From positions 1-35,274 of the forward strand of contig CALVJJ010000011.1 in assembly GCA_944332185.1 (NCBI GenBank): a DNA stretch of 35,274 nt, read 5' to 3'. The position numbers and the translations under genes are program-made. Positions 22,814 to 29,074 of this stretch are shown one piece after another; positions within the stretch are counted from its first letter, which is position 1; every line of letters begins with the position of its first letter. The DNA is from an uncultured Clostridia bacterium (GTDB taxonomy: Bacteria; Bacillota; Clostridia; Christensenellales; UBA1242). Below the pieces are notes generated by a model. The model was not told the origin of the DNA, searched no databases, and was given only the letters and a program-made list of their open reading frames with translations.

Positions 22814-23962
22814 TTACGATCTAGTAGGTAAAAAGCTTAAATACCCATACCCTTCTTCATTTCTATTATGTGTAAGAGGGTGACAATAACTTAATAACAC
22901 TCTTTTTACCATGTCTGGTGTATAGGTAAGATGATTCTGTAAAATGTGACATACCACCCCTGCGACAACTGGTGTCGCAATACTCGTACCACTCATAGTA
23001 CTATAAGATTTTTTTAACAAATGATAAGCGCAACTGGTTTTTACTTCTACTCCTGATACAATGAGATCTGGTTTATAATTGCCATAAGCTGGGCCACGAC
23101 TCGAAAAATCTGCCACTTTGAATCTATGTGGATCATATTGATCACCCACCCTCCCGTCATCCATGGCTCCAACTGTAATAATTTTCGTGCTAATTCCAGG
23201 AGATTTGACGGACTTTTCTTTAGGACCACTATTCCCACAAGCAGAGACTACCACAATACCCTGATCCCATAAAACTTCTGCCCCTAGAGCCATAGGATCT
23301 AATTTTTCTAATGGCATACTGCCAAAACTCATACAAACAACTCTAATATTATATTGTTTTTGATGATCAATGACCCATTGCATAGCTTTTAAAATGGTAA
23401 AAGATGATGTCTCTCCATTTTTATCTAAAGCTTTGATCATAATACAAGGGATACCTTTCGCTATACCACTATATTTTCCTCCTGATACAGTTCCTTGACT
23501 TGTAATAGCACTCACAACCATGGTTCCATGACCATTATCATCATACATTTTATCTTTTGCGTTTACAAGATCTACAAAATGAATGATGTTTTTATACGGG
23601 ATATTTAAGTCGATGACTGGATCACAACCTGTATCAATGACAACACAAGAAAATTGTCTATTGGTACTAAAATCTGGTAATCCAATAATTTGTTTTGTTA
23701 CATTCATGCAAGTAGCTACTTTTGTAGAAGATGTCATATATTCTACTAAAGCAAATTGTGCAATTTGATTTAGATTTTCTCTAGGAATTTGCATTTGACA
23801 GGCTTGAATAAACGGATACTCTGTAAGAATGGTGCCTAACTGATACTTTTCTACCATATATTTTAATTGTTTTAAACGATTGGAATACACAAGGCATTGC
23901 AAAGGATTATCTGTCGATAAAGTTGCGATCTTGTATAAACTTTGATCAATTTTTTGTTTCAT
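22814..23962 (-). CDS. S8 family subtilisin-like serine protease, cytoplasmic type
   Basis: The 382 residues carry a complete subtilase catalytic set: Asp110 in VVIDTG, His145 in NGHGT, oxyanion Asn244 in CGNSG and Ser327 in SGTSIATP. The first 100 residues have no signal peptide but resemble an I9-like prodomain (ALVEYMTSSTKVATCMN just before the catalytic domain). That suggests an intracellular, AprX-like protease that matures by self-cleavage. Its ATG overlaps the stop of the 93-residue gene upstream (ATGA). A role in spore formation or protein turnover is only inferred. Clostridial Csp germination proteases are related subtilases, but they are longer and show a different layout. Confidence 0.92.
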   Translation of the reverse strand: MKQKIDQSLYKIATLSTDNPLQCLVYSNRLKQLKYMVEKYQLGTILTEYPFIQACQMQIPRENLNQIAQFALVEYMTSSTKVATCMNVTKQIIGLPDFSTNRQFSCVVIDTGCDPVIDLNIPYKNIIHFVDLVNAKDKMYDDNGHGTMVVSAITSQGTVSGGKYSGIAKGIPCIMIKALDKNGETSSFTILKAMQWVIDHQKQYNIRVVCMSFGSMPLEKLDPMALGAEVLWDQGIVVVSACGNSGPKEKSVKSPGISTKIITVGAMDDGRVGDQYDPHRFKVADFSSRGPAYGNYKPDLIVSGVEVKTSCAYHLLKKSYSTMSGTSIATPVVAGVVCHILQNHLTYTPDMVKRVLLSYCHPLTHNRNEEGYGYLSFLPTRS

Positions 23963-24240
23963 ATTTTGTTTTTCAAATCCTTAAACAAATTTTTTTGTTC
24001 ATCGTTTAAATATGGTAGTAATGTCTGGTATATTTGATCTAGTTTTTCATAACTTAATTCCCCATTAGCCATTTGCATTCTTGCTATATGTAAAAATTCA
24101 TCTACTAATTCTGTTTGAGAATAATTTGCATATTTATTCATAGTTTTTTTAGTTTCTTCTTCCAATTTTTTTTCAAAATCGTCATCAATTTTTTGTTGTT
24201 TTGGTTCAATTTTGCTTTGTGAGAACTCTCGAAAATCCAT
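23959..24240 (-). CDS. small helical protein coupled to the subtilase, function unknown
   Basis: Not recognised. From the ATG at 24240 (AGGGGG SD eight bases upstream) it has 93 residues; the frame is open to 24345 but that region holds the promoter. It is highly charged and helical: a Lys/Glu/Asp-rich coiled-coil-like stretch (about 12-33), then YSQTELVDEFLHIARMQMANGELSYEKLDQIYQTLLPYLNDEQ. No membrane segment or cysteine is present. It overlaps the protease gene as ATGA. It may be a chaperone, inhibitor or adaptor of the protease, or simply a co-expressed spore protein; this is inference from the coupling alone. Confidence 0.8.
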   Translation of the reverse strand: MDFREFSQSKIEPKQQKIDDDFEKKLEEETKKTMNKYANYSQTELVDEFLHIARMQMANGELSYEKLDQIYQTLLPYLNDEQKNLFKDLKNKI

Positions 24241-24276
24241 AATTGTACCCCCTAATAACAAGTCATTCACTAATTC

Positions 24277-24306
24277 ATTATATGTTACATATAAATATAA
24301 TGACAA
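24277..24306 (-). promoter_or_regulatory. promoter of the small-protein/subtilase operon
   Basis: Minus-strand -35 TTGTCA (24301-24306, 5/6), 18-base spacer, -10 TATAAT (24277-24282, perfect). The -35 overlaps a plus-strand TATAAT (24296-24301), making an inverted repeat CATTATAT/ATATAATG (24276-24283, 24295-24302). Confidence 0.55.
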
Positions 24307-24331
24307 TGTTATCATACTAGAGGTAATCTTT

Positions 24332-24793
24332 ATGCAAAATTCCATATATCCGGATCAAAACTCATACCCTTATGGACAATTTCCATTCCAATACACAAAA
24401 GCAGGTCAAGCAAAATTAAAAGAAGAATTATTGAAAGGTGAAAATTTATTCCCTGATGCTGTAACAACGATGGATCATAGTAATGAAAACACAGCTTCTC
24501 ACCAAACCCAGAGCGACAATCCAGTCAATACCCAAAGCACATCTTCCAAAAACAATCTATTAACCAGTCTTATGCCATTACTGACCACCATGAACAATCC
24601 AAAATCCAATATGAATGATATGTTAAAATTACTATCTCCTTATGTCAATCAAAGTGGATTGCCAGTAACTGATCTAATTAAACTGATGAGTCAAATGCAA
24701 AATACATCTTCTAAAGAAGAATCTCATTCAAAGAGTCAATCTTCTGTCAGTTCTACAACGTGCAATATTGACAATTATGAAAAAGTAAAATAA
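24332..24793 (+). CDS. Gln/Asn/Ser-rich protein of unknown function
   Basis: Not recognised. From the ATG at 24332 (AGAGG SD eight bases upstream) it has 153 residues; the open frame before it is non-coding leader. The N-terminus is Tyr/Pro/Gln-rich (YPDQNSYPYGQFPFQY), followed by a short helix (AGQAKLKEELLKGENLFPDAV). A low-complexity Ser/Thr/Asn/Gln linker comes next. An amphipathic Leu/Met region, NNLLTSLMPLLTTMNN...NDMLKLLSPYVNQ...VTDLIKLMSQMQN, is followed by another Ser-rich tail. There is no signal peptide. Composition is reminiscent of spore coat proteins, but no coat family was identified. It is divergent from the small-protein/subtilase operon and has its own terminator. Confidence 0.8.
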   Translation: MQNSIYPDQNSYPYGQFPFQYTKAGQAKLKEELLKGENLFPDAVTTMDHSNENTASHQTQSDNPVNTQSTSSKNNLLTSLMPLLTTMNNPKSNMNDMLKLLSPYVNQSGLPVTDLIKLMSQMQNTSSKEESHSKSQSSVSSTTCNIDNYEKVK

Positions 24794-24794
24794 A

Positions 24795-24824
24795 AAAAGA
24801 GCTATTGCTCTTTTATTTTTATTC
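24795..24824 (+). terminator. intrinsic terminator of the Q/N/S-rich gene
   Basis: Eight-base stem AAAAGAGC/GCTCTTTT with a TATT loop (24795-24814), followed by a T-rich tail. It starts one base after the stop codon. Confidence 0.82.
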
Positions 24825-24841
24825 GCATTTTTGCATATTTA

Positions 24842-25192
24842 TTAAACTTGAAAAGAGTTATAAATGAGTAGCATATTCACAAATACAATAGCTTCTTTAA
24901 AAACTCTTATATCTAGGCCTATCATCTTTTTTATTTTTTCAATTCGATATATTAAAGTATTGCGATGCATATACCCCATCTTACTTGCTTCGCTAATATT
25001 AAGACTGTTTTCAAATAAAATTTTTGCACTCTGCACAATGTCTTGATTATTTAAAATATTTTGAATATTTTCTTGTGAAAAAAAATCATGATATCTTTCA
25101 ATCACATGGGTGGTAGAATTATTAAAAATATTGCCTGTATCAAATAGTTCCATGGCCGTTTGTTTAATTTTTTCTGCTTGATCTACACTCAT
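24842..25192 (-). CDS. PucR/CdaR-type helix-turn-helix protein
   Basis: From the ATG at 25192 (GGGGGTG SD) it has 116 residues; a TTG at 25216 is rejected. The last 60 residues match the PucR C-terminal HTH (HTH_30): SAKILFENSLNISEASKMGYMHRNTLIYRIEKIKKMIGLDIRVFKEAI, with the diagnostic HRNTLIYRI core. The first half (MSVDQAEKIKQTAMELFDTG...) is helical and has none of the usual PucR sensing domains, so this is a stand-alone DNA-binding module, unlike full-length PucR or CdaR (350-550 residues). It overlaps the degenerate ABC ATPase gene by 29 bases, so the two are surely co-expressed. The target is unknown. Confidence 0.85.
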   Translation of the reverse strand: MSVDQAEKIKQTAMELFDTGNIFNNSTTHVIERYHDFFSQENIQNILNNQDIVQSAKILFENSLNISEASKMGYMHRNTLIYRIEKIKKMIGLDIRVFKEAIVFVNMLLIYNSFQV

Positions 25193-25811
25193 TGACACAC
25201 CCCCATTTGAAGTCAATCACATTACTATTTGGTAATACTTTTTGATGAGTTGCCATAATTAAAAGATGTTTTGGTGGTTTTATCATAGATAGACATTCTT
25301 GTATCTCGTTGTTTGTCAATCCTTCCCATATATCTTCTATCAATATTATGTTTCGCTCCACTAAATTCATACGCAAAATAGCCAATTTTATTTGTTGAAG
25401 TCTGGACAAATCTTTTATTTTTTTGTCCTTTAATTCTAACCAATTCATAGATTGTAAAGATCTGTTGATTTGTTCCATTGCCATTGTTTTACTTATGTTA
25501 CGAATTTTTAATACATAATATAAATTACGAAAAACACTGCTATGACGCAAAAAATTCAAATCTTTACTAAGGTACCCAATTCCTCTATCTTTGATAGGTA
25601 TTTCATCAATATTTTTTTGATCTAAAAAAATATGTCCATTGGTGATTTTTTCTAATCCACCTATTACTCGTATAAGCATCGAACTTGAACTTAAATCATC
25701 TCCCACAATTTCATAAACATGTCCATCTAAAAATTGTAGATTTACATCATGTAATACATATTGATCTTTTACGTATTGCAAAGATACATTTTCTAATACA
25801 ATCAAGCCCAT
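25164..25811 (-). CDS. degenerate ABC-type ATP-binding domain protein (probable pseudo-ATPase)
   Basis: The 215 residues follow the layout of a MalK-like ABC ATPase: LENVSLQYVKDQYVLHDVNLQFLDGHVYEIVG at the start, then IPIKDRGIGYLSKDLNFLRHSSVFRNLYYVLKIR, with H-loop His189. The nucleotide motifs are eroded. The Walker A position reads G37-DDLSSSS, without the glycines and lysine; the Q-loop glutamine is missing; the signature is LSRLQ instead of LSGGQ; Walker B ends in Glu159-Asp160 instead of Asp-Glu. ATP hydrolysis is therefore unlikely. No permease gene is adjacent. The AGGAG SD is only one base from the ATG but seven from a TTG two codons on (25805), which may be the true start. It overlaps the HTH gene. 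Confidence 0.85.
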   Translation of the reverse strand: MGLIVLENVSLQYVKDQYVLHDVNLQFLDGHVYEIVGDDLSSSSMLIRVIGGLEKITNGHIFLDQKNIDEIPIKDRGIGYLSKDLNFLRHSSVFRNLYYVLKIRNISKTMAMEQINRSLQSMNWLELKDKKIKDLSRLQQIKLAILRMNLVERNIILIEDIWEGLTNNEIQECLSMIKPPKHLLIMATHQKVLPNSNVIDFKWGCVNECRSSRKN

Positions 25812-25826
25812 ACTCCTACTATATCT

Positions 25827-25855
25827 AGTATACTAAAATATTACTATGATTTCAA
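25827..25855 (-). promoter_or_regulatory. promoter of the pseudo-ABC/HTH pair
   Basis: Minus-strand -35 TTGAAA (25850-25855, 5/6), 17-base spacer, -10 TATACT (25827-25832, 5/6). The start near 25820 leaves a very short leader, with the SD almost at the 5' end. Confidence 0.62.
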
Positions 25856-25897: not shown

Positions 25898-25926
25898 AAA
25901 ATAAAAAGCAACCTAAGTTGCTTTTT
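25898..25926 (-). terminator. intrinsic terminator of hpf
   Basis: Ten-base stem AAAAAGCAAC/GTTGCTTTTT with a four-base loop (25903-25926), followed by ATTTTT on the minus strand. It lies eight bases after the hpf stop. Confidence 0.85.
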
Positions 25927-25933
25927 ATTTTGC

Positions 25934-26575: not shown

Positions 26576-29074
26576 TTACAATTCCCTATCTTCAACTTTT
26601 AAGACCAATCTTTCACCATCAGAGGAAATATATACAACATCTCCACTCTTTAGGCTATTTTGTATGATATTTTCCGCAATAGGATCTTCAATTTCTTGTT
26701 CAATGAGTCTTCGTAAAGGTCTTGCTCCATATTCTGTATCATATCCTTTTTCAATCAAATATCTAAGTGCACTTTCCGTGACTTTAAGTCCTATGCCTTG
26801 TTTGGATACACGCTGATACAAATTACTAATAAAAATTTTACATATTTTTTCTAATTCTTCATAATGCAAAGGATGAAATACAGTAATCATATCAATACGA
26901 TTCACGAATTCTGGTTTAAAAGTACTTTTGAATGCTGTAAGCAAAGTTTCTTTAATCATTTCATAAGGGATTTCTTCTTGTAATTGCCCTACAGTTCCTT
27001 TCTGTTTTGGTAGATTACTCACGCCAATATTACTAGTAAAGATGATAATGGTATTTTTAAAACTTACAGTTCGACCTTGACTATCTGTCAGTCTGCCATC
27101 ATCTAAGACTTGCAACAACAAATTGAATACATCTGGGTGCGCTTTTTCAATTTCATCAAATAAGACAACACTGTATGGTCTTCTTCTCACAGCTTCTGTA
27201 AGTTGTCCACCTTCCTCAAAACCTACATAACCAGGAGGTGCTCCGATTAGTCTGCTAACACTATGTTTTTCCATGTATTCACTCATATCCAATCGAATCA
27301 CGAAATTCTCATTGTCAAACATAGCTTCCGCAAGTGCTTTACATAATTCTGTTTTACCGACACCTGTTTGACCTAAGAAAGCAAAACTTCCAATTGGTCT
27401 ATTATTATCTTTAAGTCCTGTACGATTCCTGCGAATAGCTTTACAGACAGCACTGACTGCTTCATTTTGACCAATGACTCTTTTGTGCAAAATTTCTTCG
27501 AGATTCATCAGTCTTTCTAGTTCTGATTCATTGAGTTTTGATACTGGGATATGTGTCCAATCACTTATTATATCTGCAATATCACTATCCACAACTGTAA
27601 TGGTATGATCTTGTTCTTCTTTACGTTTTATTTCATCTCGTATAAAATATGCTTTTTTCAGTTGTTCTCTACATTCACTTGCTTTTTGAAAATTCTGTAT
27701 GGTAAAAAACTGTTGTTTTGCCTGTTCTAGTCTTGCTATTTCTTGTTCTATCACCCCTAGTTCTTCCGATTTTGTACGATTTCTCACTTTAGCTCTTGCA
27801 CTAGCCTCATCAATCAAATCAATGGCTTTATCTGGTAAAGATCGATCCATAATGTATTTATCGCTTAATACTGCTGCTGCTTGAATAGCAGAATCATCAA
27901 TGACTACATGATGATAATTTTCATAACTGGATCGAATTCCTTTTAGAATCGCAATCGTATCTTCTACTGATGGTGGATTGACCATAATAGGCTGGAATCT
28001 TCTTTCCAATGCTTTATCTTTTTCTATATATTGTCGATATTCATTGATGGTTGTGGCTCCAATTGTTTGGAACTCCCCTCTAGACAAATATGGTTTTAAG
28101 ATATCAACAGGACTAATTTCTCCTTTGTCTCCCCCCATTTGCATTAACGTATGAATTTCATCAATAAAAATAATTACATTTTTATGATTTTTGATAAAAT
28201 CAATCAGTTTTTTTAATTTTTCTTCTAGTGCTCCACGATATTGTGTTCCAGACATCATGCTTGCTAGATCCAAACTAAAAATAATTTTGCCTTGTAATTC
28301 ATCAGGTACATTCCCTTTGACAATCGCAAGAGCCAAACCTTCCACAACTGCACTTTTCCCAACGCCAGCTTCTCCAATCAAAATGGGATTATTCTTTGTC
28401 TTTCGGCAAAGAATTTCAATCATTCTATCTGTTTCTTCTTTTCTACCAATGATTTTATCAATTTTTCCTAATCTAGCTTTTTCTGTAAGATCTATACCCA
28501 TTTGTAAAATTTCTGCTGGTAATGGGCTGCTAGATTGTTGCGTACTACTAGCAATATTCGTTGTATAAGATTTGTAAGTTTCAGATGTTGTAGAAGATAC
28601 ATTGTTTGTCTTTTTAGGTGTTGGATTATTTTTCTGTAATAAGGACAATATGGTATTTTTTAAACTGTCAATTTTTATATGAAAAGCCTTTTCTAGTATT
28701 TTGACAGCATAACAGTCAGGTATCAATAGTAAAGCTATCAAAACATGCTCTGTAGTTATATAATTTTGACCGATTTGCATGGCAAATTGATTCGCGATCG
28801 TAAAAACTTCTTTTGTTCGTGGTGTCAGTTCTATAGAAGGATTCAAACTAACACTTAGATTTTTTTCACCATTTTTGCCAAAAACTTTATCAATTAGATC
28901 AGCTGTCACTCCATATTGTTGTAATATTTTTGACGCAACTCCATTGGTCACACAAGCCAAACCATACAAAAGATGCTCTGTTCCTACTTGTGCACTATGG
29001 TAAGAACATGCAATATTATTTGCATACGTGAGAGATTTGTTGACATTATCTGTAATTTTCATTCCTAACGACAT
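26576..29074 (-). CDS. clpC: ClpC, AAA+ protein unfoldase
   Basis: Unfoldase that partners ClpP and, in Bacillus, degrades arginine-phosphorylated proteins marked by McsB. The 832 residues show a double Clp_N domain (about 1-150), a linker rich in Ser/Thr/Asn, and AAA-1 with GEAGVGKS and VIIFIDEIHTL. A middle domain with a UVR-like segment (FQKASECREQLKKAY) and AAA-2 with GQTGVGKTELCKAL and VVLFDEIEKAH follow. The C-terminal D2-small domain includes YGARPLRRLIEQEIEDPIAENI. Length suits ClpC (810-850). AGGAG precedes the ATG. It is the last gene of mcsA-mcsB-clpC. Confidence 0.96.
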   Translation of the reverse strand: MSLGMKITDNVNKSLTYANNIACSYHSAQVGTEHLLYGLACVTNGVASKILQQYGVTADLIDKVFGKNGEKNLSVSLNPSIELTPRTKEVFTIANQFAMQIGQNYITTEHVLIALLLIPDCYAVKILEKAFHIKIDSLKNTILSLLQKNNPTPKKTNNVSSTTSETYKSYTTNIASSTQQSSSPLPAEILQMGIDLTEKARLGKIDKIIGRKEETDRMIEILCRKTKNNPILIGEAGVGKSAVVEGLALAIVKGNVPDELQGKIIFSLDLASMMSGTQYRGALEEKLKKLIDFIKNHKNVIIFIDEIHTLMQMGGDKGEISPVDILKPYLSRGEFQTIGATTINEYRQYIEKDKALERRFQPIMVNPPSVEDTIAILKGIRSSYENYHHVVIDDSAIQAAAVLSDKYIMDRSLPDKAIDLIDEASARAKVRNRTKSEELGVIEQEIARLEQAKQQFFTIQNFQKASECREQLKKAYFIRDEIKRKEEQDHTITVVDSDIADIISDWTHIPVSKLNESELERLMNLEEILHKRVIGQNEAVSAVCKAIRRNRTGLKDNNRPIGSFAFLGQTGVGKTELCKALAEAMFDNENFVIRLDMSEYMEKHSVSRLIGAPPGYVGFEEGGQLTEAVRRRPYSVVLFDEIEKAHPDVFNLLLQVLDDGRLTDSQGRTVSFKNTIIIFTSNIGVSNLPKQKGTVGQLQEEIPYEMIKETLLTAFKSTFKPEFVNRIDMITVFHPLHYEELEKICKIFISNLYQRVSKQGIGLKVTESALRYLIEKGYDTEYGARPLRRLIEQEIEDPIAENIIQNSLKSGDVVYISSDGERLVLKVEDREL

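Follow-up and report, generated by a model that had tools for sequence, protein, structure and literature searches.

A stretch of 35,274 nucleotides from the genome of an uncultured Clostridia bacterium (hereafter, the window) encodes a stand-alone MalK-type ABC nucleotide-binding domain (NBD) with eroded catalytic motifs, whose gene overlaps that of a small PucR-type helix-turn-helix (HTH) protein. We tentatively regard this pseudo-ATPase as the remnant of a locus that paired a MalK-type ATPase with a PucR/CdaR-type regulator, kept in a non-transport role and probably regulating together with the HTH protein. Such a regulatory partnership is the single most likely reading, although it falls somewhat short of an even chance. 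The features of the locus are as follows:

25164..25805, minus strand: pseudo-ATPase, stand-alone MalK-type ABC nucleotide-binding domain, 213 aa from the likely TTG start
24842..25192, minus strand: stand-alone PucR-type helix-turn-helix protein (HTH_30), 116 aa, matching Pfam HTH_30 (PF13556) at 5.9e-12
25827..25855, minus strand: promoter-like TTGAAA-N17-TATACT upstream of the pair, from a consensus scan only
25898..25931, no strand assigned: terminator-like hairpin separating hpf from the pair and flanked on each side by A/T runs, from a consensus scan, scored on the plus strand
24795..24814, no strand assigned: two-way terminator-like hairpin after the HTH gene, from a consensus scan

A MalK-like fold with erased nucleotide motifs

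The reading frame of the pseudo-ATPase is intact. Translation from ATG 25811 would give a protein of 215 aa (25164-25811, minus strand), but TTG 25805 is the more likely start, because the resulting N-terminus, MIVLENV, fits the family start MIxxKNV and the codon lies 7 nt from an AGGAG. GC content by codon position (0.39/0.25/0.22) resembles that of adjoining genes, and the probability of an open frame of this length arising by chance is ~8e-8. The protein matches Pfam ABC_tran (PF00005) at 2.1e-12, its top match among solved structures is E. coli MalK (1.1e-17), and its best NCBIfam matches are UgpC, sulfate, WtpC, MalK and spermidine ATPases, all far under the cut-offs. No OB_MalK/TOBE domain was detected by Pfam in the 213-215 aa, and scanning the contigs of the genome with the window ABC protein returned distant matches only. 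The single-sequence AlphaFold model has a pLDDT of 37, too low to be informative. Neither the pseudo-ATPase nor the HTH protein matched anti-phage defence models.

In place of the Walker A consensus GxxxxGK[ST], the window protein has GDDLSSSS, in which Gly37 is retained and the Gly-Lys pair is replaced by Ser42-Ser43. The Q-loop Gln has become Lys83, the signature reads LSRLQ (135-139) instead of LSGGQ, and the Asp and following catalytic Glu of Walker B are replaced by Glu159-Asp160. The A-loop Tyr13 and an H-loop-like His189 (IMATHQ), not noted in the sequence-only reading, are present. Judged by these motifs, the protein can no longer hydrolyse ATP. The open reading frame, the Pfam match and the motifs thus bear out the sequence-only reading, which described an intact MalK-like frame with Walker A, Q-loop, signature and Walker B all lost.

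Loss of catalytic motifs and purifying selection across the family

The motif census covered 116 distinct homologues from the bacterial family of the window organism (f1), a family of many genera with genomes mostly of 0.6-1.4 Mb. LSGGQ is intact in none of them, the catalytic Glu is present in nine (lost in ~92%, with Asp in 61 and Asn in 38), the Q-loop Gln in seven, and the H-loop His in a single one, the window protein. By contrast with the expectation that Walker A would be lost across the clade, its Lys is kept in 105 of the 116 homologues (with Arg in 3); Walker A has been lost too in the window member and in those of G020, G011, G021, G022 and G047. The census therefore shows early loss of the hydrolysis motifs with a P-loop mostly retained, and the ABC-like proteins of the family look hydrolysis-dead but mostly still ATP-binding. 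They form one clade in two trees (98/94 and 100/100), and, by a manual table count, homologues stronger than ~1e-39 occur in roughly four fifths of the 297 family genomes. Pairwise dN/dS within close groups of catalytically dead relatives ranges from 0.02 to 0.28, the window copy having no close relative in the set, and these relatives are under purifying selection.

The length of the ABC gene varies. In some HTH-bearing genera it is longer, ~290-390 aa, without a recognisable OB/TOBE domain. In genus g7, the space between clpC and the HTH gene is occupied in one genome by a 159-aa ORF without any match (L148:1924-2403) and in another by a 178-aa ORF that matches the pseudo-ATPase profile only weakly (4.7e-11; L206:1415-1951). 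These ORFs perhaps represent an extreme stage of erosion at which the HTH partner has been retained.

Stepwise erosion of motifs with Walker A going last, the shrinkage of some members to 159-178 aa, and the loss of the HTH gene in many genera, down to a stop-containing fragment in G151, are what one would expect if a transporter ATPase were simply leaving a shrinking genome and the window copy were a remnant still unbroken. Such ordinary decay could account for the window copy on its own but does not fit the family: it is at odds with the dN/dS values of the catalytically dead relatives, with the wide distribution of strong homologues, and with the open frame and coding composition of the window gene itself. 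We consider it improbable.

The HTH partner and its linkage to the ABC-like gene

The HTH gene of the pair is the only HTH_30 match in the window genome. Its start, ATG 25192, is preceded by an SD-like GGGGGTG, and given this start the two genes overlap by 29 bases, as had been noted from the sequence. The product has the C-terminal HTH_30 of PucR/CdaR regulators, and Pfam found no upstream sensor or GGDEF_2 domain in the 124 aa searched. Its structure model has a pLDDT of 68, and a fold search with this model produced no significant match. The pseudo-ATPase and HTH genes likely constitute a two-gene operon, since the pair is bracketed by consensus matches to promoters and terminators. A promoter-like TTGAAA-N17-TATACT and an AGGAG, in line with the promoter and SD proposed earlier, are present, but promoter-like matches at the locus are no commoner than in shuffles; terminator-like matches are commoner (3 vs 0.3). 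When the region upstream of the pair was compared by eye across six genera, no conserved operator could be discerned, only promoter-like boxes among the sequences listed. Genes for a subtilase, a small acidic protein and, on the opposite strand, an Asn/Gln-rich protein adjoin the pair across genera (window 22814-24793; L003, L004, L007, L011, L160-L163); the small acidic and Asn/Gln-rich proteins have no significant Pfam match.

In the family, the HTH gene was found in 93 of 297 genomes, one copy being a fragment with a stop. The 92 intact frames are 103-168 aa long, and their N-terminal sensor/GGDEF_2 region is gone. Four loci are truncated by the end of a contig; at 85 of the other 88, the HTH gene is immediately preceded on the same strand by an ABC-like gene, with gaps from -89 to +157 nt, and this includes genera with a heavily diverged ABC gene (e.g. 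L206). Linkage of an ATPase gene to a regulator gene is thus nearly complete where the HTH gene exists, as in MalK-MalT-like co-regulation. The three exceptions are in G006, G061 and G014; in G061, a 159-aa ORF with no detectable match occupies the ABC position. On the other hand, at least 11 genera that keep the ABC-like gene, the largest (g50) included, have no detectable HTH partner, and over half of the genomes of the family lack the HTH gene while keeping the ABC gene. The pairing put forward in the sequence-only reading is therefore conserved but not obligate, and the many genomes with the ABC gene alone count against the HTH protein as co-regulator. In G151 (L216; contig C6, around 26950-27030) the HTH gene is a fragment with a stop codon and other species of the genus keep or lack it; judging from these sequences, the HTH partner is being lost in this genus.

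In ABC-only genera, a gene for a lipoprotein-like protein of 165-171 aa and no known family is located directly upstream (L160:4955-5458, L161:3495-4001, L162:4774-5289, L165:2183-2680), and this protein is a possible alternative partner of the pseudo-ATPase there.

These genera also bring close behind the co-regulator reading an alternative, to which we assign a lesser but substantial probability, that the pseudo-ATPase does a job independent of the HTH protein, for example scaffolding at the membrane or in association with a small lipoprotein, and that the operon is merely inherited gene order. Consistent with such a job are the number of genera that have dispensed with a detectable HTH gene, the strong selection seen also in g20 and g50 pairs, and the placement of the lipoprotein-like gene directly upstream in these same two genera. 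However, it does not readily explain why linkage outlasts strong divergence of the ABC gene, nor why the same types of protein are linked in other families, and the window locus has no lipoprotein gene.

Near-absence of permeases

The window genome (0.96 Mb, 97% complete) has no ABC permease near the pseudo-ATPase, as the sequence-only reading had stated, and only one BPD_transp_1 permease overall, which is adjoined by its own NBD with intact motifs. Partner sugar permeases of the kind expected for a MalK/UgpC ATPase are thus missing from this genome. OB_MalK was detected in none of 35 genomes of the family, whereas 15 of 24 from other families have it. Purifying selection in the relatives, the lack of OB_MalK/TOBE and the near-absence of permeases together make a non-transport role of a retained pseudo-ATPase probable, in agreement with the original proposal.

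Degenerate NBDs are a known component of heterodimeric ABC transporters, such as BmrCD, in which the catalytic Glu and the signature are lost while the fold is kept. The pseudo-ATPase shares these losses and the kept fold, and Walker A is retained in most of its relatives, so that it might still serve as the inactive member of a heterodimeric NBD pair whose active ATPase and permeases are encoded elsewhere. We find this very improbable: the locus has no permease gene in its vicinity, the one BPD permease encoded in the genome already has an intact-motif NBD alongside, and the family lacks OB_MalK ATPases of the permease type. Moreover, NBDs of the BmrCD type share a chain with membrane domains and have an active NBD as partner, whereas the pseudo-ATPase stands alone.

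Possible origin from a MalK-PucR locus

In the order outside f1, regulator-bearing genomes have one homologue of the regulator each, mostly as frames of 310-450 aa. GGDEF_2 and HTH_30 were found in all four of those tested, with GGDEF_2 under the cut-off in one. In several other families, a ~373-aa ATPase adjoins the regulator (L135, L137, L139, L140, L220, L221, L224, L114); two such ATPases were tested and possess ABC_tran, OB_MalK and TOBE_2. Other families of the order do have homologues with intact motifs, which together with adjacent permeases had been named beforehand as a sign of ordinary transporter decay, but these homologues, too, often lie beside the regulator; as the pairing within f1 also persists where the HTH gene does, the outcome of that check is mixed. 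At the class level, the order MalK - regulator - FtsE-like gene recurs (L238-L250, L253; within the order, L135, L137, L139, L221). Among the best 30 class loci, an ATPase of 369-390 aa with LSGGQ precedes the regulator in 14, and a shorter ABC gene, FtsE-like by sequence, follows it in most. Judging by this neighbourhood, a multitask sugar ATPase and a PucR/CdaR-type regulator may be linked. In a limited literature search, we found no paper describing a MalK-PucR pair or an ABC pseudo-ATPase regulator.

Genus g38 of family f15 (L133, L141, L142, L146) has the same regulator shortened to 113-134 aa, apparently separately from the shortening in f1. There, the short regulator is followed not by an ABC gene but by a gene for a ~445-aa protein with an N-terminal membrane segment.

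MalK and FtsE were compared as possible ancestors of the pseudo-ATPase. FtsE is similar to it in length, and an FtsE-like gene follows the ancestral regulator. The tree does not separate MalK from FtsE ancestry, profile scores are tied, and the MalK profile outscores that of FtsE in only 39 of 116 homologues; that the tree leaves MalK origin unsettled counts against a MalK-PucR remnant. Nevertheless, the pseudo-ATPase family has an inter-motif spacing of 22-23 residues (22 in the window protein, which is also MalK-like in sequence), compared with 22 in MalK and 27 in FtsE, its consensus is identical to MalK at 55 of 161 positions vs 47 of 161 for FtsE, and the pseudo-ATPase is located on the other side of the regulator from the FtsE-like gene. 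Descent from FtsE is thus disfavoured by spacing and position, and position, motif spacing and consensus identity favour a MalK-type ancestor.

A proposed regulatory role

E. coli MalK, when transport is absent, binds and inhibits the activator MalT (PMC10427625). MalK (like the multitask ATPases MsmX/UgpC) has the same NBD type and motif spacing as the pseudo-ATPase and is likewise linked to a transcription regulator, but it is an active ATPase with OB/TOBE and permeases, whereas the pseudo-ATPase lacks catalytic motifs, OB/TOBE and permeases. The partners differ as well, MalT being a STAND protein and the HTH protein here being PucR-type. The latter shares HTH_30 with PucR/CdaR-type regulators (GGDEF_2 plus HTH_30) and is homologous to the full-length regulators of the order and class, yet is reduced to the HTH and a short helical N-terminus.

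On the co-regulator reading, a MalK-type ATPase would once have adjoined a PucR/CdaR-type regulator, and the window gene would represent a late stage. The small-genome family presumably lost the sugar permeases, the OB/TOBE domain of MalK and the sensor domain of the regulator, and the NBD fold and the DNA-binding domain would have stayed together after these losses. We infer that the NBD may act through contact with a protein partner, like MalK on MalT, holding or releasing the HTH protein. A two-protein transcription switch, as suggested in the sequence-only reading, is possible. In most species the signal might be ATP binding without hydrolysis, while in the window species the protein would be a nucleotide-independent scaffold. 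The more specific proposal is that stand-alone ABC pseudo-ATPases sense ATP without hydrolysing it, or perhaps a different signal in the window species, and act directly as the switch of a minimal PucR-type HTH protein, a sugar importer's regulatory arm having outlived the importer itself; we regard it as less likely than not.

If the co-regulator reading is correct, the family would be a natural experiment in which an ABC NBD lost catalysis early and yet was kept by selection without a transporter, in many cases next to a bare DNA-binding domain. The family would then allow a test of whether MalK-like ATPases can exert their regulatory function on their own, and would illustrate how transporter parts are converted to other uses in reduced genomes.
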